From Enterobacter sp. RHBSTW-00175 (GTDB taxonomy: Bacteria > Pseudomonadota > Gammaproteobacteria > Enterobacterales > Enterobacteriaceae), in contig NZ_CP055930.1 of assembly GCF_013927005.1 (NCBI RefSeq), positions 5,022,001 through 5,086,000 on the forward strand: a DNA stretch of 64,000 bases, given 5' to 3'. Of this stretch, positions 5,285 through 51,950 are shown piece after piece. The notes below the pieces were generated by a model, which worked only from the letters and a program-made list of their open reading frames with translations, did not search any database and was not told where the DNA came from. How positions within the stretch are numbered: position 1 is the stretch's first letter; every line of letters begins with the position of its first letter. The position numbers and the translations under genes were made by a program.

Positions 5285-6517
5285 ATGTCGCTAAATTGCT
5301 TCGATGCACTGAATTACATAAAAACGCCAGTGTGGCTGATTTCCCCCGTCTCAGAACAAATTATATTTGCAAACGCCGCAGCTACCGATGTCATGCGGAC
5401 TAAAACAGTCAATGAAATGCGTACGGGGGTCTACTCCGCTAATGCGCAATCCGCACTTTCAATGTATGTTCCGGACCTCAAAACCGACCAGGAAATAATC
5501 GAAATCTGGACGGTCTGGCGTAATGAGCAAGAATCAACATTAATCTGCCGCCTGTCACTCATCCAGTGTGAGCCTTACGGTGATGTCATCATTTTTGAGG
5601 GGCTCGCCCAGCAAACCACAGCGGGCCTTAAAGCCAGTCGCTCGGCAACCTATCAACGAAAAAAACAGGGTTTTTACGCACGATTTTTCCTGACGAACAG
5701 CGCGCCAATGCTGCTTATCGACCCGGCGCGGGATGGTCAAATTGTGGATGCGAACCTGGCCGCATTGAATTTTTACGGTTATCAGCACGATGAATTGTGC
5801 AGCAAACATACCTGGGAAATTAATACCCTCGGTCGTGACATCATGCCGGTAATGACAGAGATAGCGAGCCTGCCTGGTGGGCATAAACCGCTTAACTTTG
5901 TCCACCGACTCGCCGATGGCTCAACCCGGCATGTGCAGACATATGCCGGGCCAATTGAAATTTACGGCGATAAGCTGATGCTGTGCATCATTCACGATAT
6001 TACGGAGCAAAAGCGGTTAGAACAGGAACTGGAACATGCGGCACTGCGAGATTCCATGACAGGCCTGCTTAATCGTCGTCAGTTTTACATTATCACCGAA
6101 CAAACAAACCCTTCTCACCTGCCCGCTCAGGAGCAGTTCAGCCTGTTGCTGGTGGATACCGACCATTTTAAAAATATCAACGATGTTTTTGGCCACCTCA
6201 AAGGTGATGAAGTCCTGATCTCGCTCTCCCGTACGCTGGAGGCCTGTAGCCGTAAAGACGACTTTGTTTTTCGCTGGGGGGGTGAGGAGTTTGTGATTTT
6301 GCTACCCAGAACCTCGCTTGATGCCGCCATGCAGGTCGCCGAAACGATCCGCGCCGCCGTTGCGCACATTACCATCCCGGGGCTTCCGCGCTTCACGGTC
6401 AGTATCGGCGTCGCGCGCCATAATCCGGGAGAGAGTATCGACGACCTGTTTAAACGTGTCGATGATGCGCTGTACCGCGCCAAGAACAATGGGCGCAATA
6501 AGGTGCTGGCTGCGTGA
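5285..6517 (+). CDS. dgcM: diguanylate cyclase DgcM
   Basis: The 410-residue length and sequence match E. coli DgcM (YdaM), especially from residue 114 (LKASRSATYQRKKQGFYARF) onward. DgcM is a cytoplasmic PAS-GGDEF cyclase. In E. coli it makes c-di-GMP locally and binds MlrA and PdeR to turn on csgD, and so curli fibres. An N-terminal PAS-like region (1-110), a second PAS (about 130-245) and a GGDEF domain are visible. The active motif is GGEEF at 332-336, and RKDD at 323-326 fits the RxxD inhibitory site. Its E. coli partner PdeR corresponds to the RpfR protein at 29.3 kb. The first 110 residues are the most diverged from E. coli. Confidence 0.93.
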   Translation: MSLNCFDALNYIKTPVWLISPVSEQIIFANAAATDVMRTKTVNEMRTGVYSANAQSALSMYVPDLKTDQEIIEIWTVWRNEQESTLICRLSLIQCEPYGDVIIFEGLAQQTTAGLKASRSATYQRKKQGFYARFFLTNSAPMLLIDPARDGQIVDANLAALNFYGYQHDELCSKHTWEINTLGRDIMPVMTEIASLPGGHKPLNFVHRLADGSTRHVQTYAGPIEIYGDKLMLCIIHDITEQKRLEQELEHAALRDSMTGLLNRRQFYIITEQTNPSHLPAQEQFSLLLVDTDHFKNINDVFGHLKGDEVLISLSRTLEACSRKDDFVFRWGGEEFVILLPRTSLDAAMQVAETIRAAVAHITIPGLPRFTVSIGVARHNPGESIDDLFKRVDDALYRAKNNGRNKVLAA

Positions 6518-26917: not shown

Positions 26918-27005
26918 CCATACTAATTACCTAAAGAGCGCTTGCTGTAGCAGTGAGAATCGCGTAAAACTGTCAGCCGCTCAATGGCTACGAAAATAGA
27001 ACATT

Positions 27006-28940
27006 ATGTTTCAGGACAACCCGCTGCTAGCGCAGCTAAAACAGCAACTGCATTCCCAGACGCCGCGTGCAGAAGGGGTCGTAAAAGCCACGGAAAAGGG
27101 CTTTGGCTTCCTTGAAGTCGATGCGCAGAAAAGCTACTTCATTCCGCCTCCGCAGATGAAAAAAGTGATGCACGGCGATCGCGTCACTGCCGTCATTCAC
27201 ACCGAGAAAGAACGTGAGTCCGCCGAGCCGGAAGAACTGATCGAACCTTTCCTGACCCGTTTCGTGGGTAAGGTACATAAAAAAGACGACCGTCTGTCTA
27301 TCGTTCCGGATCATCCCCTGCTGAAAGATGCCATTCCGTGCCGCGCTGCGCGTGGTGTTGAGCATGATTTTAAAGAAGGTGACTGGGCCGTTGCTGAAAT
27401 GCGCCGTCATCCTCTGAAAGGCGATCGCGGTTTCTATGCGGAACTGACCCAGTTCATTACCTTTGGCGACGATCATTTCGTCCCATGGTGGGTGACGCTG
27501 GCACGCCATAATCTTGAAAAAGAAGCGCCAGATGGCGTAGCAACCGAAATGCAGGACGAAGGTCTGGCACGTCGTGACCTGACTGCTCTGGATTTTGTCA
27601 CTATCGACAGTGCCAGCACTGAAGATATGGATGATGCCCTGTTTGCTGAAGAGTCAGCTGACGGCAAAATGCATCTGACCGTAGCGATTGCCGATCCAAC
27701 GGCATGGATCGTTGAAGGCAGTAAGCTGGACGATGCTGCGAAAATTCGCGCATTCACCAACTACCTGCCGGGCTTCAACATCCCGATGCTGCCACGCGAA
27801 CTGTCCGACGATCTCTGCTCGCTGCGTGCAAACGAAATCCGTCCTGTTCTCGCCTGCCGCATGATCATTGCTGCTGACGGGACCATTGAAGACGATATCG
27901 AATTCTTTGCCGCCACCATCGAGTCTAAAGCCAAACTGGCCTATGACGACGTTTCTGACTGGCTGGAAAATTCCGGCAGCTGGAAACCAGAAAGCGAGGC
28001 TATTGCCGCGCAGATCCGTCTGCTGCATCGCATCTGCCTGAGCCGTAGCGAATGGCGTACCACTCACGCGCTGGTATTTAAAGACCGTCCTGATTACCGC
28101 TTTGTTCTCGGTGAAAAAGGCGAAGTGCTGAATATCGTCGCAGAGCCGCGTCGCATCGCGAATCGCATTGTTGAAGAAGCCATGATTTCCGCCAATATTT
28201 GTGCCGCGCGCGTGCTGCGCGACAAATTAGGTTTTGGCATTTACAACGTGCATACCGGTTTTGATCCGGCAAACACCGAAGCGCTGGCTGCCCTGCTGAA
28301 AAACCATGATGTTCACGTTGATCCAGAAGAAGTGCTGACGCTGAACGGCTTCTGCAAACTGCGCCGCGAGCTGGATGCACAACCATCCGGTTTCCTGGAC
28401 AGCCGCATTCGTCGCTTCCAGTCCTTCGCTGAAATCAGCACTGAGCCAGGGCCGCACTTTGGTCTGGGCCTTGAAGCCTACGCAACCTGGACTTCTCCAA
28501 TCCGTAAGTATGGCGATATGGTTAACCATCGCCTGCTGAAAGCGATTATCAAAGGCGAGTCCATTGCGCGTCCGCAGGACGATACCACGGTACAGATGGC
28601 GGAACGTCGCCGCCTGAACCGCATGGCTGAGCGCGATGTCGGTGACTGGCTGTATGCGCGTTTCCTGAACGACAAAGCAGGTACTGACACCCGTTTCCCG
28701 GCAGAGATCATCGATATCAGCCGTGGTGGGATGCGTGTACGTCTGGTTGATAATGGCGCGGTTGCCTTTATCCCTGCGCCATTCCTGCACGCTGTTCGTG
28801 ATGAACTGGTTTGTAGCCAGGAAAACGGTACCGTGCAAATCAAAGGCGAAACGGTTTATAAAGTCACAGACGTGATTGACGTAACCATCGCTGAAGTTCG
28901 CATGGAAACCCGTAGCATTATCGCGCGCCCTGCTGCCTGA
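27006..28940 (+). CDS. rnb: RNase II
   Basis: A 644-residue processive 3'-5' exoribonuclease that degrades single-stranded RNA, the same length as E. coli RNase II. Two N-terminal cold-shock domains (about 1-175) precede the RNB catalytic domain with the acidic cluster [10 protein letters not shown] (about 201-210) and a second conserved block [20 protein letters not shown]; a C-terminal S1 domain (about 560-644) follows. Next gene is rpfR on the same strand, but a hairpin and a 325-base gap separate them. Confidence 0.98.
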
Positions 28941-29265
28941 TAACTTATTAAAATGTCGGTCATTTCCTTTTTGGAAAGGCCGACATATCTTCAACCCGTC
29001 TTATTTCGCCAAATCATCATTTTTTCTTATTATTTTCCTCTTCTGCCCGCCAAAACTTGCCAGAATTATCTACATTAAAAGAGAGCCGTCATATCCGGTT
29101 ACGTGAATTTTTATACCGCACGTATCCTTTTTGACGCGACTCGTTTTAATATAATAAAACTGGGAAAAAACAATAAGTTCACTTCGGTTTTGCCGCTGTC
29201 TCACTACGGAAAAGTCGACTGCAATTGAATAATGTTTGCGCTAATGAGCAGCCGCAGGAGAAAAC
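28941..29265. other. intergenic region rnb-rpfR with 3' hairpin
   Basis: A hairpin at 28953-28986 (outer stem ATGTCGG/CCGACAT, inner TTTCC/GGAAA) follows rnb and may protect or end its mRNA, though there is no strong T tract. The rest is AT-rich and should contain the rpfR promoter; I see no convincing promoter or gene. AGGAG lies just before the rpfR start. Confidence 0.55.
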
Positions 29266-31257
29266 ATGATGGATGATCTGGAGCAGAATTTGCTGTTTCG
29301 TTACATGGGTACGCACAGCCCCTGGTGGCGACTGACAGCCGATAGCAATGCTCTGCATCTGGCCACCAGCGAAAGTGCCGATGTTATTCAGGTCGTTGCG
29401 CTGAGTGATGAGCAGGCCGATCTCATTCGTCAACTTACCGTTATTACCTCCAGCATTACGATGACGTTGCCACTGTATGGTGTTGATGTCCCTGTTCATT
29501 TGGTCGGCCGTAAAATCAATAAAAAAGAGTGGGCTGGCACAGCATCGGCCTGGAACGATACCCCTTCTGTTGCCCGCGACCTGCTCCAGGGACTCTCATT
29601 TGCAGAGCAGGTTGTCTCCGAAGCCAACTCCGTGATTGTCATCCTCGATCAAAACGGGAACATTCAGCGTTTCAACCGTCTTAGCGAAGAGTATACCGGT
29701 CTGAAAGAACAGGAAGTAATCGGCCAGAACGTCTTTAAGCTGTTCATGAGCCGCAGTGAAGCGGCCGCGTCCAAACGCAACATTACCGGTTTTTTTCGTA
29801 ACGGCAGTTCCTATGAAGTCGAGCGCTGGATCAAAACGCGCAAGGGACAAAGATTGTTTCTGTTCCGAAACAAATTTGTTCACAGCGGCAGCGGTAAGAA
29901 TGAAATTTACCTTATCTGTTCAGGAACCGATATCACCGAGGAACGCCGCGCCCAAGAGCGCCTGCGCGTGCTGGCGAATACCGATACCATCACTGGGTTG
30001 CCTAACCGGAATGCTATCCACGAACTGATATCCGACGCCATAGAGGCGCGCGGAGAAACCCAGGTCGGCGTGGTGTATCTCGACCTGGATAACTTCAAAA
30101 AGGTAAATGATGCCTACGGGCATATGTTCGGCGATCAGTTATTACAGGCGGTTGCCCTGGCGATCCTGAGTTGTCTGGATGATGGGCAAATCCTCGCCCG
30201 TCTCGGTGGCGATGAGTTTATCGTGCTGGCAACGGACACTTCGCAAGGTACGCTGGAGGCGATGGCCTCGCGGATCCTCACCCGCTTACGCCAGCCATTC
30301 CGCATCGGACTGATTGAGATTTATACCGGCTGCTCGCTCGGTATCGCCCTTGCGCCTCAGCACGGCATCGATCGCGAAAGCGTCATTCGTAACGCAGATA
30401 CAGCAATGTATACCGCCAAAGAGAGCGGCCGCGGTAAGTTCTGCGTCTTCTCGCCAGAGATGAACCAGCGCGTTTTCGAGTACCTTTGGCTTGATACCAA
30501 CCTGCGTAAAGCGCTGGATAACGATCAGTTGCTAATTCACTATCAGCCAAAAATGACCTGGCGTGGCGAAATCAGAAGCCTGGAAGCGCTGGTACGCTGG
30601 CAGTCACCGGAGCGCGGCCTTATCCCGCCGCTGGAGTTTATCTCCTATGCCGAAGAGTCGGGGCTGATTGTGCCGCTTGGCCGCTGGGTTATGCTCGATG
30701 TGGTACGCCAGGTTGCCAAATGGCGCGATAAGGGCATTAATCTGCGCGTCGCAGTTAACGTCTCGGCGCGTCAGCTTGCCGATCAGACCATTTTCAGCGA
30801 TTTAAAACAGGCGCTGAAGGATTTAAACTTTGAATACTGCCCTATCGATGTGGAATTAACCGAAAGCTGCCTGATTGAAAACGAAGAACTGGCGCTTTCG
30901 GTTATCCAGCAGTTCAGCCAACTCGGGGCGCAAATCCACCTGGATGACTTTGGTACGGGGTACTCGTCACTTTCGCAGTTAGCGCGTTTCCCAATCGATG
31001 CGATTAAGCTCGATCAGTCATTCGTTCGGGATATTCATAAGCAGTCGATTTCACAATCGCTGGTGCGTGCGATCGTTGCGGTGGCACAGGCGCTGAATTT
31101 ACAAGTTATTGCCGAAGGTGTAGAGAGCGCAAAAGAAGACGCCTTTCTGACTAAGAACGGCGTCAATGAACGGCAGGGATACCTGTTTGCTAAGCCTATG
31201 CCCGCTGCCGCATTCGAGCGATGGCTAAAGCGTTATCAGGCGCGAAAAATGCGTTAA
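29266..31257 (+). CDS. rpfR: RpfR/PdeR-type DSF receptor, PAS-GGDEF-EAL
   Basis: A 663-residue cytoplasmic protein at the E. coli pdeR (yciR/gmr) position. Order of domains: an N-terminal region (1-95) that in RpfR proteins contacts RpfF, PAS (about 110-225) that binds the fatty-acid signal, GGDEF (about 235-400; intact GGDEF at 314-318) and EAL (about 410-655; EAL at 440-442, DDFGTG later). In Cronobacter and Burkholderia, signal binding raises phosphodiesterase activity and lowers c-di-GMP. In E. coli PdeR, which lacks RpfF, the protein restrains DgcM and csgD. Presence of rpfF immediately downstream favours the RpfR name. ATG at 29266 or 29269 are both possible after AGGAG. Confidence 0.9.
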
Positions 31258-32123
31258 CTGGCTTTGCGTAAACCCGCAGCGTGGTGGCGGTCCTGCAGCA
31301 TAACCAGACGCTCCATATAGGCAATATCTTTGGGTTCGAGGCAAAACGCAGCGTCGACCCAATCTTCAGTAATGTCCATCAACTCGCTACGCGGAAGTTG
31401 CAGCACGCGTGTACGGGCGCGCAGCATTGCCCTTACCCCGTTCATCTTCGGCTGTAATGTGTCGATAAACGTACGTACCGCCATATAGCTTTGTCCTGGC
31501 TCGAAAAGGACATCCACTAACCCGTGCTGTTCGTACCACTCCGCAGTATGAGACTCCCCTTTGTAGATAAGTTCCTCCGCCAGTTTCATACCTGAACGAC
31601 GGGCAACCAGCGAATACCCCCCCATACCCGGGAACAAGTTGAAGGCAATTTCAGGAAATCCTAAACGTGCATCGCGCTGGCCAAGAACAAAATGGTGCGC
31701 CAGGGCCGCCTCAAATCCACCACCTAAGGCGCTGCCTTCAACCATCGCCAGTGTAATAGCGCCAGTATCAAAACCGCGTGATGCGGCGTGTACGCAATCG
31801 ACACAAGCTCGGGCATAGGCACGTAATGCCTCGCGACGCCCGTTCTGTATGCAATCGACAAAGAACTTCAAATCGCCCCCCGTGTTGTACATATCAGGAA
31901 CAAGCGAGCCGGTGACCCAGAAGTCGACAACAAAACCAGACTGCCGCACCAGCCAGGACAAGTTCATGATCTCCTCAATCAACGCGTGGTTGAAGCAAGG
32001 TCGTGGCTGGGACTTCAACATCATCCAGACGGTGTGGCGTTCCTCCTCATAATACGCAGCGAGTTGGGTAAAACGTTCAGCATCAGTGAACAGTGTGCAA
32101 GTAGCTTGATTGATAACTGTCAT
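31254..32123 (-). CDS. rpfF: RpfF diffusible signal factor synthase
   Basis: A 289-residue crotonase-superfamily enzyme. RpfF dehydrates 3-hydroxyacyl-ACP and releases a cis-2-unsaturated fatty acid (DSF/BDSF) used as a cell-to-cell signal. Both catalytic glutamates of the family are present, E138 in GGGFEAAL and E158 in [15 protein letters not shown], 20 residues apart as in Xanthomonas RpfF (E141/E161). E. coli K-12 lacks this gene; Cronobacter and Enterobacter carry it next to rpfR. Its stop codon shares TTAA with that of the convergent rpfR. A plain enoyl-CoA hydratase is less likely given the context and the FPGMGG motif. Confidence 0.9.
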
Positions 32124-32316
32124 AGTCTAATTCCTCATATAAAAAAGCGCCTTGCGCGCAGAATTAGCCTAATCCACACATTCAACTCACTGCATGAGGA
32201 GGGATAAATTTATCACTTTCATTTATGTAATTTCCTTATTGCATTTTTTCCCTTCTCTTTTGATCCTATTTTCTGCATCATTGAAAATATTAACTTTTCG
32301 CTCCAGGGGTGAAATT

Positions 32317-32499
32317 ATGTCCAACATTGATGCACTGACCGTGGCACAACGTATTGATACCGTGCTGGATATCCTGGTTGCGGGCGATTATCACTCTGCT
32401 ATCCGTAATCTTGAGATCTTAAAATCCGAATTGCTGGCTCAGAATGGCGCCGACACCGCACCAGAAAGCGCGCAACCTAAAGCCCCGTGGGAAGTGTAA
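32317..32499 (+). CDS. yciZ: YciZ small protein (UPF0509)
   Basis: A 60-residue protein containing [20 protein letters not shown] and ending KAPWEV, matching E. coli YciZ (57). Function unknown; probably a soluble helical protein. I start it at 32317 after AGGGGTGA; a longer frame adds an implausible hydrophobic leader. It is divergent from rpfF and 44 bases upstream of yciT on the same strand, so they may be co-transcribed. Confidence 0.9.
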
Positions 32500-32543
32500 C
32501 CACCACGTTTCCGACCTCGTTCAGTTTTTTTTAAATGGATGCT

Positions 32544-33296
32544 ATGAATTCCCGACAACAACTCATTTTACAGATGGTCATCGATCAGGGACGCGTGAGC
32601 GTGGTCGACCTCGCTAAAACCACCGGCGTATCTGAAGTCACAATCCGTCAGGATCTTAATCTGCTGGAAAAACAGAGTTACCTGCGTCGTGCGCACGGGT
32701 ATGCCGTTCCTCTTGATAGCGAAGACGTCGAAACGCGCATGATGAACAACTATGCGCTGAAGCGTGAACTCGCGGAGTTTGCCGCTTCTCTGGTGAATAA
32801 TGGTGAGACGGTGTTTATCGAGAACGGCAGCAGCAATGCGCTACTGGCGCGTACGCTTGCCGAACAGAAAGACATCACAATCATCACCGTCAGTAGTTAT
32901 ATCGCTCATCTGCTTAAAGAAACCCGCTGCGAAGTGATTCTGCTCGGGGGTATTTATCAGAAAAAAAGCGAGAGTATGGTTGGGCCTCTAACCCGGCAAT
33001 ATGTTCAGCAAGTGCACTTCAGTAAAGCCTTTATCGGGATCGACGGCTGGCAGGCAGAGACAGGTTTTACCGGCCGGGACATGATGCGTTCAGATGTGGT
33101 TAACGCGGTACTTGAAAAAGAGTGTGAAGCCATTGTTCTCACCGACAGTTCAAAATTTGGCGCGGTTCACCCTTATATGATGGGGCCGATTTCCCGTTTC
33201 AGTCGCGTAATTACCGATGATAGGTTAAGTAACGAACATCGCCAGCAACTCGAACATACTGGCCTGACGGTCGATATTGTCAAAAACCCCGCATAA
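32544..33296 (+). CDS. yciT: YciT DeoR-family regulator
   Basis: A 250-residue DeoR-family repressor: N-terminal helix-turn-helix (about 1-55, [20 protein letters not shown]) and a sugar-phosphate-binding-like domain (about 75-235) with [12 protein letters not shown] and FIGIDGW. It matches E. coli YciT (249), reported to affect osmotic-stress genes. Start MNSRQQ at 32544 agrees with E. coli; an ATG three codons upstream is also possible. osmB follows on the same strand. Confidence 0.93.
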
Positions 33297-33306
33297 TATC
33301 TTTTCT

Positions 33307-33325
33307 GCGCCCGGCTCCCGGGCGC
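33307..33325 (+). terminator. hairpin after yciT
   Basis: GCGCCCGG/CCGGGCGC with a CTC loop lies 10 bases after the yciT stop. It is strong in GC but not followed by a T run, so it may be a weak or Rho-assisted end. Confidence 0.4.
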
Positions 33326-33489
33326 CGTCAATTTCATCTCTGAGAGAATTCCTGGACTCCCTTTAAGACTTTTTACCTGTTTAACCAGCGTTAAAATCGT
33401 AAAATTAATATTAGCGATATAACAGGAAGTGACTATCACCTGCGTGATTACGTAACGCCTGCGCGACCAGCTTTCACGGGAAACGGAAT

Positions 33490-33516
33490 TTAAGTATGCC
33501 AATGGTCTATACTTAA
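33490..33516 (+). promoter_or_regulatory. osmB stress promoter within an inverted repeat
   Basis: CTATACT at 33507-33513 is a perfect sigmaS-type -10 sequence. It is embedded in an 8-bp inverted repeat TTAAGTAT/ATACTTAA (33490-33497 and 33509-33516). The osmB ATG is 44 bases after the repeat. E. coli osmB has a sigmaS promoter and an Rcs-controlled one; the repeat may be an operator. Confidence 0.65.
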
Positions 33517-33559
33517 AGTGTATTTCTTTCCGTGAATCGATAATTCAGGAGAAAGTATT

Positions 33560-33778
33560 ATGTCTTTAACCAGCAAAAAATTAACCGCAGCTGTTCTGGC
33601 TGTTGCTCTGGCAATGTCCCTGAGCGCATGTTCCAACTGGTCGAAACGCGACCGTAACACTGCCATTGGTGCCGGTGCCGGTGCAATCGGTGGTGCGGTC
33701 TTAACTGACGGTAGTACGCTGGGTACGTTAGGTGGTGCTGCTGTTGGCGGTATTATCGGTCACCAGGTGGGCAAATAA
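33560..33778 (+). CDS. osmB: OsmB osmotically inducible lipoprotein
   Basis: A 72-residue lipoprotein: signal peptide with lipobox LSAC, acylated C24, then a glycine-rich zipper (GAGAGAIGGAVL, LGGAAVGGIIG). E. coli OsmB is an outer-membrane lipoprotein induced by osmotic stress and stationary phase. A GGAGAA ribosome binding site precedes the ATG. A bidirectional terminator separates it from the convergent yciH. Confidence 0.96.
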   Translation: MSLTSKKLTAAVLAVALAMSLSACSNWSKRDRNTAIGAGAGAIGGAVLTDGSTLGTLGGAAVGGIIGHQVGK

Positions 33779-33852
33779 TCTCCATAACGGCAGCCACCGA
33801 TATAAAGATAATTTTGAATATATTTCAGGTCTGACTTACGCACGTAAAAATA

Positions 33853-33876
33853 GAGCCACGGTATTTACCGTGGCTC
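33853..33876. terminator. bidirectional terminator osmB/yciH
   Basis: A 10-bp stem GAGCCACGGT/ACCGTGGCTC with an ATTT loop, with A-rich sequence on the left and T-rich on the right, lies between the convergent genes. Confidence 0.88.
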
Positions 33877-33883
33877 ACTTATT

Positions 33884-34210
33884 TTAACCGCCCGCCAGTT
33901 TTACTTTCATACCTTTGGCTTCGAGCAGTGATTTAATTAAATCTCGTTTGTCGCCCTGAATTTCAATAATACCGTCTTTCACAGCGCCGCCACATCCGCA
34001 TTTCTTTTTAAGCTCAGCTGCAAGTTTCGCCAGTTCAGCATCGTCTGCATCAATACCGGTAATCAGGCAAACACCTTTACCCTTTCTGCCACTGGTCTGA
34101 CGCTGGATGCGCACTACACCGTCGCCTTTCGGGCGCTCTGCCGCAGCTTTGGGTTCATCGATGCGGCCGGTTTCAGTGGAGTACACCAGGCGGCTGTTAG
34201 AATCGCTCAT
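33884..34210 (-). CDS. yciH: YciH, SUI1/eIF1-family protein
   Basis: A 108-residue protein with the SUI1 domain (about 30-105): GKGVCLITGID, LKKKCGCGGAVKDG and IQGDKRDLI. YciH is a bacterial homologue of eIF1 and may affect start-codon fidelity in stressed cells; its role is not settled. The start overlaps the pyrF stop by one base, so the two are coupled. Confidence 0.95.
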   Translation of the reverse strand: MSDSNSRLVYSTETGRIDEPKAAAERPKGDGVVRIQRQTSGRKGKGVCLITGIDADDAELAKLAAELKKKCGCGGAVKDGIIEIQGDKRDLIKSLLEAKGMKVKLAGG

Positions 34211-34947
34211 TACGCGCCCTTCTTCAGTGAGGCATTGATGGCCTTCAGCGTTTGAGCCGGGTTAGCCGATTGCGTTATCGGGCGACCGATAACCATATAG
34301 TCAACACCCGCCGCCAGCGCCTGCTCAGGCGTCATGATGCGGCGCTGATCGCCCACGTCACTTCCTGCCGGACGAATACCCGGTGTGACAAGCTTGAACG
34401 CCTGACCCAGTTCAGATTTGAAGCGTACAGCTTCCTGCGCGGAACAGACCACCCCGTCCAGACCACAGTTTTGTGTCAGGCGCGCAAGACGTTCAGCATG
34501 CTCAGCAGGTGACAACGTCACGCCAAGATCGCGCAGGTCACTTTCGTCCATGCTGGTCAGAACCGTTACGGCAATCAGTAATGGCGCGTCTTTGCCAAAA
34601 GGTACAAGCGCTTCACGCGCGGCAGTCATCATACGCGCCCCGCCCGATGCATGGACGTTTACCATCCATACACCCAGTTCGGCAGCCGCGGCAACCGCAT
34701 GTGCCGTGGTGTTGGGGATATCGTGAAATTTCAGGTCGAGGAAGATTTCAAAGCCCCGCTGTTGGAGGTCACGCACGATTTGTGGCCCAAACAGCGTGAA
34801 CATTTCTTTGCCGACTTTCAGGCGGCAGTCACGCGGATCAATGCCATCGACGAAGGCAAGTGCAGCATCGCGGTTATTGTAATCGAGAGCAACAACAACA
34901 GGAGAATCAGTAACTACGCGGGAAGCGGAGGAAGTAACAGACGTCAT
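34210..34947 (-). CDS. pyrF: PyrF orotidine 5'-phosphate decarboxylase
   Basis: A 245-residue enzyme converting OMP to UMP, the last step of de novo pyrimidine synthesis. The catalytic DxKxxD signature is [10 protein letters not shown] (about 71-80), with [10 protein letters not shown] at the N-terminus and [15 protein letters not shown] for the phosphate. Lies between lapB and yciH on the same strand, as in E. coli. Confidence 0.98.
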
Positions 34948-41090: not shown

Positions 41091-41309
41091 TTAAAGATAA
41101 CACATGGTGGATGTAACGTTTTGATAACAACCCAAATTGATAAATTGTCGCGAGTGAAGAAGGCGGGTAAAAAACAAAAAACCCCGCCGTAGCGAGGTTT
41201 TATCAATCAGTAAAAAGGTTAGCCAGACAAGCTGACACCAGAAGAGAATCGACAACGAAAAAACGCCTATCCACGACCAGTATTTGAGAGTTCTCACGTT
41301 ATTCATCAT
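41091..41309 (-). CDS. small ymiC-like membrane ORF running through a terminator
   Basis: The frame begins [20 protein letters not shown] and has one hydrophobic helix (about 12-35). The first 30 residues resemble E. coli YmiC as I remember it (about 31 residues, same locus). The frame does not stop there: it continues through an intrinsic terminator (41176-41198) and ends at 41091 after a basic, low-quality tail. A transcript ended at the terminator would lack the stop codon. Either the natural stop was lost or the ORF is not translated in this form. Upstream lies yciX on the same strand, acnA downstream. Confidence 0.4.
41176..41198 (-). terminator. intrinsic terminator upstream of acnA
   Basis: On the minus strand ACCTCGC/GCGGGGT with a TACG loop is followed by a long T tract. 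It separates the ymiA-yciX-ymiC-like region from the acnA promoter region (41042-41175). Confidence 0.85.
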
Positions 41310-41444
41310 AGCAACACCAGACTTTATTAATTAGTGATCCTGAGTGAGTTCCTCAGTACTATATTGCTGATGTGTATTTATAAAAGAGTACAAAAGCGCA
41401 GAGACATTCTTCGGACTATTCGCGTAATAACGCTCAAAACCAAA

Positions 41445-51834: not shown

Positions 51835-51879
51835 ATGACAGCACATTTCACTCTGCATGGTTGGTGGCGCACTTCCTGA
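51835..51879 (+). CDS. trpL: trp operon leader peptide TrpL
   Basis: The 14-residue peptide MTAHFTLHGWWRTS has the tandem tryptophan codons and the GWWRTS end of E. coli TrpL ([14 protein letters not shown]). Ribosome stalling at the Trp codons controls the attenuator downstream. AAAGGTATCT lies upstream. Confidence 0.95.
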   Translation: MTAHFTLHGWWRTS

Positions 51880-51924
51880 TTATCGGGCAGTGTCACTCGT
51901 CTGCGAAATGCAAACAGATACCAG

Positions 51925-51950
51925 GCCCGCGCTAAAGCGGGCTTTTTTTT
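51925..51950 (+). terminator. trp attenuator terminator
   Basis: GCCCGC/GCGGGC with a six-base loop followed by eight T residues, 45 bases after the trpL stop and 26 bases before trpE. The upstream segment GGGCAGTGTCACTCG and following bases should form the competing antiterminator. Confidence 0.92.

Follow-up and report, generated by a model that had tools for sequence, protein, structure and literature searches.

A stretch of 64,000 nt of Enterobacter sp. RHBSTW-00175 (NZ_CP055930.1; hereafter the window), taken from a genome of 5.57 Mb in four contigs, very probably carries on the chromosome a complete diffusible signal factor (DSF) quorum-sensing module, formed by the DSF synthase RpfF and its receptor RpfR. 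The presence of such a pair had been noticed in an earlier note on this DNA and was confirmed as real, and the interpretation offered there was partly supported. The note had placed the pair in the E. coli pdeR locus; the host is an Enterobacter and no E. coli strain, and the closest named genome is that of Enterobacter soli ATCC BAA-2102, with 99% identity for RpfF and for RpfR. Matches of E. coli to window positions 27000–34300 were all 80–90% identical, and in a search that may not show the records nearest to the window, none of 5426 E. coli genomes had a single place covering at least 80% of that segment. The pair itself is already known, as the note had recognized, and this case adds one Enterobacter to an existing list: the genus appears among those having both homologues (PMC4698668).

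RpfR was identified by its domains. Residues 1–95 matched the RpfF-interaction (FI) domain of PDB entries 6dga and 6dgn (E 3.9e-32), the comparison with RpfF–RpfR structures proposed earlier, and residues 115–224 matched the PAS domain of 6dgg and 6dgj (E 2.1e-62). The Pfam models EAL, GGDEF and PAS all scored above cut-off and literal GGDEF and EAL motifs were found, which bears out the RpfR layout assigned to the open reading frame (ORF) at 29266–31257. The protein scored 1295.5 bits against the PdeR equivalog PRK10060 of NCBIfam (cut-off 782), and the accompanying gene order rnb-pdeR-yciZ-yciT was also present. Residues S169, N172, Y183, R187 and N202, which in the numbering of Cronobacter turicensis contact the acid (PMC6361424), are all conserved. 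Substitutions S168A, N171A, R186A and N201A in Burkholderia cenocepacia each raised the level of cyclic di-GMP (c-di-GMP; PMC6361424), so that substitutions of S169, N172 or R187 should have consequences.

The adjoining crotonase carries both catalytic glutamates, E138 and E158, with the numbering given in the earlier note, together with F44 and F88; all four are kept in 120 of 120 rpfF-carrying loci (sample described below). F44 and F88 shift conformation in the complex of RpfF with FI (PMC6361424). Pfam assigned the protein to ECH_1 and ECH_2, and the source names of its relatives are mostly 'crotonase/enoyl-CoA hydratase family protein', with one 2,3-dehydroadipyl-CoA hydratase, as would be the case for an ordinary enoyl-CoA hydratase adjoining pdeR by chance. 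Such an origin is extremely improbable in view of the structural matches, a phylogeny, the conservation of F44 and F88, and the co-occurrence and fixed convergence with rpfR described below. The best PDB matches were 6dgn and 5fus (RpfF of B. cenocepacia; 413 bits), followed by 7zq7, a member of the crotonase/enoyl-CoA hydratase family by name that matched over the whole length (160.6 bits), and by 3m6m, an RpfF presumably from Xanthomonas (153 bits); the first plain hydratase scored 51 bits. NCBIfam PRK08788 (408 bits, cut-off 177) was the sole model above cut-off among the 25 models listed out of 47. Also counting against a chance neighbour, JGI uses the label 'DSF synthase' for three among 120 listed relatives. 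Phylogeny had been named in the earlier note as a way in which the assignment could fail. In a quick maximum-likelihood tree of 70 of the 71 supplied rows, with 37 Enterobacterales RpfF chosen from about 120, RpfF of the window fell in one group (SH-aLRT 100) with the rest of the Enterobacterales RpfF (36) and the two from Burkholderia. The 28 class-level RpfF-like rows lay outside it, as did three crotonase paralogues encoded in the window's own genome, so that the refuting outcome named in the note did not occur; this is taken with reserve, because a program warning pointed to long branches that meet, those of the crotonase paralogues included. As a separate observation, a crotonase 30% identical to RpfF of the window was found on E. 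coli plasmids NZ_CP060058.1 and NZ_CP060062.1 (22295–23044) from human faeces.

From the observed genes, domains, key residues, family, arrangement and partner genes we infer the product, its binding, the regulation and the output. RpfF would act on a 3-hydroxyacyl-acyl carrier protein, dehydrating it and cleaving the thioester to release a cis-2-unsaturated fatty acid, which is most likely cis-2-dodecenoic acid. The FI domain of RpfR would dock on RpfF and restrain it, and binding of the acid in the PAS pocket would activate the EAL phosphodiesterase and lower c-di-GMP. The function of the pair has been published for C. turicensis and B. cenocepacia (PMC4698668, PMC6361424), and production of the acid by RpfF, restraint by FI, binding by PAS and activation of EAL are carried over from these sources by homology. 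The pair is supported, and so is the earlier proposal that it likely links the making and sensing of DSF with c-di-GMP turnover.

The genome of the window also encodes orthologues of MlrA (80%), CsgD (88%) and DgcM (69%). In E. coli PdeR acts on the MlrA, DgcM and CsgD parts, and its role as a switch is documented (PMC5635695). Since DgcM partners PdeR in E. coli, it is a likely partner of RpfR here, and with these three orthologues in the genome the output may extend to a curli switch of the E. coli PdeR type; by analogy, DSF may feed this switch in this Enterobacter. The same orthologues and the documented role of PdeR (PMC5635695) would also suit an arrangement in which RpfF makes the signal and RpfR works mainly as a trigger enzyme for DgcM and MlrA, as E. 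coli PdeR does, barely responding to the signal. This is unlikely: RpfR of the window has all five residues of the DSF contact and an intact FI patch (described below), and these are kept in 120/120 and 119/120 rpfF-carrying loci, respectively, a conservation expected if the ligand matters; besides, both roles can coexist. A second, partial csgD-like match (L173; G000:C1:4069658-4069918), 82% over residues 1–87, lies about 6 kb from csgD in the genome of the window.

Several observations weigh against a functional DSF module. The NCBIfam equivalog for RpfF, NF053515, gave 176.5 bits (cut-off 550); this model would represent the Xanthomonas type of RpfF. The acid, its binding and the effect on c-di-GMP in this strain are predicted by homology. 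The effect on biofilms is opposite in sign in C. turicensis and B. cenocepacia (PMC4698668), so that the output in Enterobacter cannot be inferred from them. Promoter-like (two) and terminator-like (three) sites were no more frequent than in shuffled sequences (3.7 and 4.5). At L059, a named locus carrying rpfF, the 12.9 kb covered contain no rpfR, and in one genome (G264) a second rpfF-like ORF of full length (L123:4865-5734) lies away from rpfR, none being present across the 11 kb of that locus. The neighbours of this second ORF, named by eye, are LacI-, phosphotransferase system- and glucosidase-like genes.

The distribution of the pair was surveyed in 392 genomes of 154 genera of the family, with RpfF called at E ≤ 1e-60 and the FI-PAS part of RpfR at E ≤ 1e-12. 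rpfF was found in 99 genomes (32 genera) and rpfR in 143 (48 genera); all 99 genomes with rpfF also carried rpfR, and 44 had rpfR alone. For the genus of the window, rpfF was present in four of five genomes drawn. The genes converge in 122 of 122 loci with both of them in reach (near-duplicates included), overlapping by 4 bases in 72, lying 0–100 bases apart in 37 and further apart in 13, and they also converge in two Burkholderia loci. The distance from rpfR to yciZ is 75–246 bases in 38 rpfF-less loci versus 1053–1391 in 69 loci with overlapping rpfR and rpfF. In one rpfF-less locus of the window's genus (L085; G239:C1:2477433-2483800), rpfF codons 18–39 (E 2e-5) and 271–289 (E 1e-6) persist in place; as judged by these matches, the gap is an rpfF deletion scar with both ends left and the middle gone. 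A second rpfF-less locus (L108) retains codons 272–289 (E 0.003), and no rpfF remnant was detected by tblastn below E 1 in the other 36 of the 38 rpfR–yciZ gaps.

Because of the convergent position, the remnants in L085 and L108 and the same arrangement in Burkholderia, the rpfF/rpfR pair is probably ancestral and the PdeR-only state derived, rpfF having been deleted repeatedly. The direction suggested by the earlier note is probably reversed, the pair looking older and PdeR without RpfF being the derived form. A gain of rpfF by horizontal transfer in the lineages that carry it would agree with its patchy distribution (32 of 154 genera), and parsimony counts alone cannot separate gain from loss, one reading having a backbone loss followed by a regain. 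The convergent position beside rpfR in all 122 loci, and the retention in place of both rpfF ends in L085 and of one in L108, make such a gain very unlikely. If losses are final, the protein tree has 12 rpfF-less groups; parsimony gave 11 changes, one of them a regain, and a DNA tree with 76 rows gave 8. The backbones of these trees are weakly supported.

Other features were seen at these loci. E. coli ymiD (L165:3648-3776) converges with pdeR and overlaps its end at the place where rpfF would sit; it was considered as an rpfF remnant and rejected, as it showed no similarity to RpfF by eye and the K-12 gap gave no tblastn hit at E ≤ 10. Between rpfR and rpfF there is a fimbria-like gene cluster filling a gap of about 6.3 kb in L139 and a carboxymuconolactone-decarboxylase-like gene with a LysR-type regulator in L138 (2817–4178), both named by eye, and gaps of about 1.4–1.5 kb occur in several Buttiauxella loci. 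An in-frame TGA interrupts rpfF in L124 (G387), and in G324 (C1:1433982-1434434) the rpfF match covers only residues 132–282; these are possible further losses under way. In L069 (Siccibacter colletis strain 1383) there is a stop in rpfR just ahead of the GGDEF motif.

Receptors with and without a neighbouring synthase were then compared. The rpfF-less set (38 rows) comprised 37 of the 44 genomes with rpfR alone, after exclusion of seven with fragmentary or weak matches (G028, G042, G045, G061, G094, G201 and G216), plus E. coli K-12. The rpfF-carrying set (120 rows, near-duplicates included) comprised 42 of the 99 genomes, the window's own not among them, 80 named loci and the window. Four loci were removed from it: L059 and L123, which lack an rpfR within reach, L069, whose rpfR contains a stop, and L075, whose rpfR is short. 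A reduced set held 62 and 37 rows with and without rpfF, respectively. The five contact residues read SNYRN in 120 of 120 rpfF-carrying loci versus 16 of 38 rpfF-less ones (17 ignoring position 183). Changes among the latter were S169A in seven, N172 in 11, Y183 in two, R187L in three and N202 in none; Y183F is tolerated, since both Burkholderia receptors carry Phe. R187L was found in PdeR of E. coli K-12 and two relatives, a third member of those relatives' genus code retaining Arg, and Leu187 occurs in six further E. coli genomes picked among 30 listed, O157:H7 included.

By parsimony, 12 contact-residue changes were placed on the tree, ten on rpfF-less branches, of which two are at position 183 where at least Phe is tolerated, and two, both at position 169, ambiguously on the backbone. 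The proportion of 10/12 compared with 227/591 at other PAS positions gave p 0.002 in a Fisher test that treats changes as independent, or p 1.3e-5 if 12/12 are counted, and a binomial test on branch length gave p between 0.008 (PAS lengths) and 1.5e-5 (EAL lengths). Eleven GGDEF and EAL motif positions, chosen from recall, showed no change on a tree of 99 rows; the EAL motif is literal in 119/120 rpfF-carrying rows (one ESL) and in 38/38 rpfF-less rows.

A patch in the FI domain behaved similarly. Eighteen FI positions kept in at least 99% of rpfF-carrying rows were ranked within one rpfF-less clade (19 rows, E. coli included), which pointed to A29, G72, S27 and D26. Across the 11 remaining rpfF-less clades, these four showed changes in 36 of 76 cells, spread over 9 clades, as against 19 of 266 cells and 4 clades for the fourteen others, none of which was changed in more than two clades; for rpfF-carrying rows the corresponding cell counts were 1/480 and 2/1680. 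The D-S-A-G patch is intact in 119/120 rpfF-carrying rows, in both Burkholderia loci and in 2/38 rpfF-less rows, one being the scarred L085. An AlphaFold2 model of FI (residues 1–105; best predicted local distance difference test score 84.3, with five models spanning 46.0–84.3) shows the published order of elements (PMC6361424), with a helix at the N-terminus, six strands, and a further helix that joins strands 3 and 4. In it G72 lies in the strand 4–5 loop, D26 and S27 in the strand 1–2 turn, and A29 starts strand 2. The strand 4–5 loop is buried against RpfF (PMC6361424), and the model would place the strand 1–2 turn at the same sheet edge. None of the four residues is named in the text of PMC6361424.

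A simple decay of FI after loss of rpfF was rejected as stated, since codon omega stays far below 1. Values with and without rpfF were 0.094 and 0.132 for FI, 0.029 and 0.048 for PAS, 0.043 and 0.056 for GGDEF, and 0.030 and 0.040 for EAL, rising without rpfF in all four domains (by a third in EAL); these runs used 35 and 37 rows, respectively, with yciZ nearby, kappa 1 and shortened GGDEF (232–350) and EAL (412–560) segments, and the FI tree length of 35.6 without rpfF indicates saturation. The FI-to-EAL branch ratio in lineages with yciZ nearby was 3.5 with rpfF and 4.0 without (5.0 on loss branches). FI stays under purifying selection in the absence of RpfF, and because of this it probably has a second role in E. 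coli and its relatives.

Combined, these results suggest that loss of the synthase rewires the receptor: the FI patch, a putative docking site, would change (A29 foremost), as would the DSF contacts, without alteration of the EAL and GGDEF motifs, FI would serve a second partner, and E. coli PdeR, with Leu187, would be a DSF-blind descendant of RpfR. This reading is put forward tentatively, as one that falls a little short of probable, and several results speak against it. The held-out signal is mostly that of A29 (8 of 11 clades; G72, S27 and D26, 3 of 11 each), which lowered our confidence, and the split into training and test clades was made after the four positions had been seen in all rows. 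The FI-to-EAL branch ratio is 1.3 in other rpfF-carrying lineages, so that the rate of FI varies for other reasons too. Finally, a strict independent-pairs test of rpfF versus pocket was not significant; with two supported pairs in one run and five in another (median p 0.25 in the latter) it is underpowered, and the opposite direction was never seen.

These comparisons bear on E. coli. For E. coli PdeR, which acts as trigger enzyme in the curli switch, there is to our knowledge no agreed input signal. The earlier view that the receptor is what K-12 has kept of the pair should be given up: besides lacking rpfF, K-12 does not have an intact receptor, its PdeR being changed in both pocket and FI patch (Leu187 and the patch residues, with a Pro before GGDEF in addition). 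The literature describes in E. coli a conserved rpfR homologue and no DSF synthase, names E. cloacae as one of the species with RpfR, and contains the speculation of Waldron et al. that dodecanoic acid regulates Gmr/PdeR (PMC6361424). No report of R187L in E. coli PdeR or of erosion of the FI patch was found in open-licence PubMed Central text, a scope that leaves aside figures such as S2 of PMC6361424. As opposed to the dodecanoic acid proposal, the sequences suggest that the fatty-acid pocket of PdeR was altered after loss of the synthase. They name R187 in PAS and A29, D26, S27 and G72 in FI as residues that bear on the loss of sensing and on a new FI partner, and Enterobacter, having RpfF along with MlrA, DgcM and CsgD, provides a natural setting for the question of whether DSF feeds the curli switch.

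The gene order in the window, fabI, yciW, rnb, rpfR/pdeR, rpfF, yciZ, yciT, is that of E. coli K-12 apart from rpfF, fabI and yciW being named from position only; rpfR and rpfF converge, their 3' ends sharing four bases. A promoter scan of 32124–32316 found no sigma-70-like site. Elsewhere in the window, Rfam matches were obtained for the small RNA STnc180 (41170–41384, minus strand) and for a trp operon leader (51856–51950, plus strand).

Features of the rpfR–rpfF locus and of a partner gene, in window coordinates
Feature	Position	Strand	Basis
rpfR / pdeR orthologue, 663 aa, FI-PAS-GGDEF-EAL	29266..31257	+	ORF, Pfam, PDB; NCBIfam PRK10060
FI domain, residues 1-95, patch D26/S27/A29/G72	29266..29550	+	PDB 6dga/6dgn match, AlphaFold2 model
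PAS domain, residues 115-224; DSF-contact S169, N172, Y183, R187, N202	29608..29937	+	PDB 6dgg/6dgj
GGDEF domain, literal GGDEF at residue 314	29959..30441	+	Pfam, motif
EAL domain, literal EAL at residue 440, DDFGTGYSS present	30499..31215	+	Pfam, motif
TTAA, stop codons of both rpfR (+) and rpfF (-)	31254..31257		sequence
rpfF, DSF synthase of RpfR-partner type, 289 aa	31254..32123	-	ORF, PDB, NCBIfam PRK08788, tree
rpfF codons of E138 and E158	31710-31712 (E138); 31650-31652 (E158)	-	sequence
Intergenic region, divergent rpfF / yciZ; presumed rpfF promoter site	32124..32316		sequence
DgcM orthologue, 69% to E. coli DgcM	5294..6514 (G000:C1:5027294-5028514)	+	protein comparison

Among known systems, the RpfF/RpfR pair of C. 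turicensis (PMC4698668; 6dga, 6dgg, 6dgj) shares the domain layout and the signal-contact residues and is functional there; it belongs to a different genus, and the Enterobacter pair is known here from sequence. RpfFBc and RpfRBc of B. cenocepacia (5fus, 6dgn; PMC6361424) are 64% and 57% identical to RpfF and RpfR of the window, respectively, and are likewise convergent and share the D-S-A-G patch, the Burkholderia pocket being SNFRN, with Phe at position 183 where RpfR of the window has Tyr. According to PMC9684580, B. cenocepacia H111 is without homologues of the YciR partners, whereas the genome of the window has MlrA and DgcM. E. coli PdeR (YciR/Gmr) is an orthologue in the same place, rnb-pdeR-yciZ-yciT, and keeps the GGDEF and EAL motifs, its GGDEF having been called degenerate (PMC5635695). 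It differs by the absence of rpfF, by R187L at the Arg that contacts the carboxylate, by L313P before GGDEF and by an SSVE patch in FI, and it is only 49.5% identical to RpfR of the window in FI compared with 91.6% in EAL. The RpfF of Xanthomonas is also a DSF synthase of the crotonase family, and its signal is received by the hybrid sensor kinase RpfC and the HD-GYP regulator RpfG (PMC4698668), in contrast to the single PAS-GGDEF-EAL protein found here.

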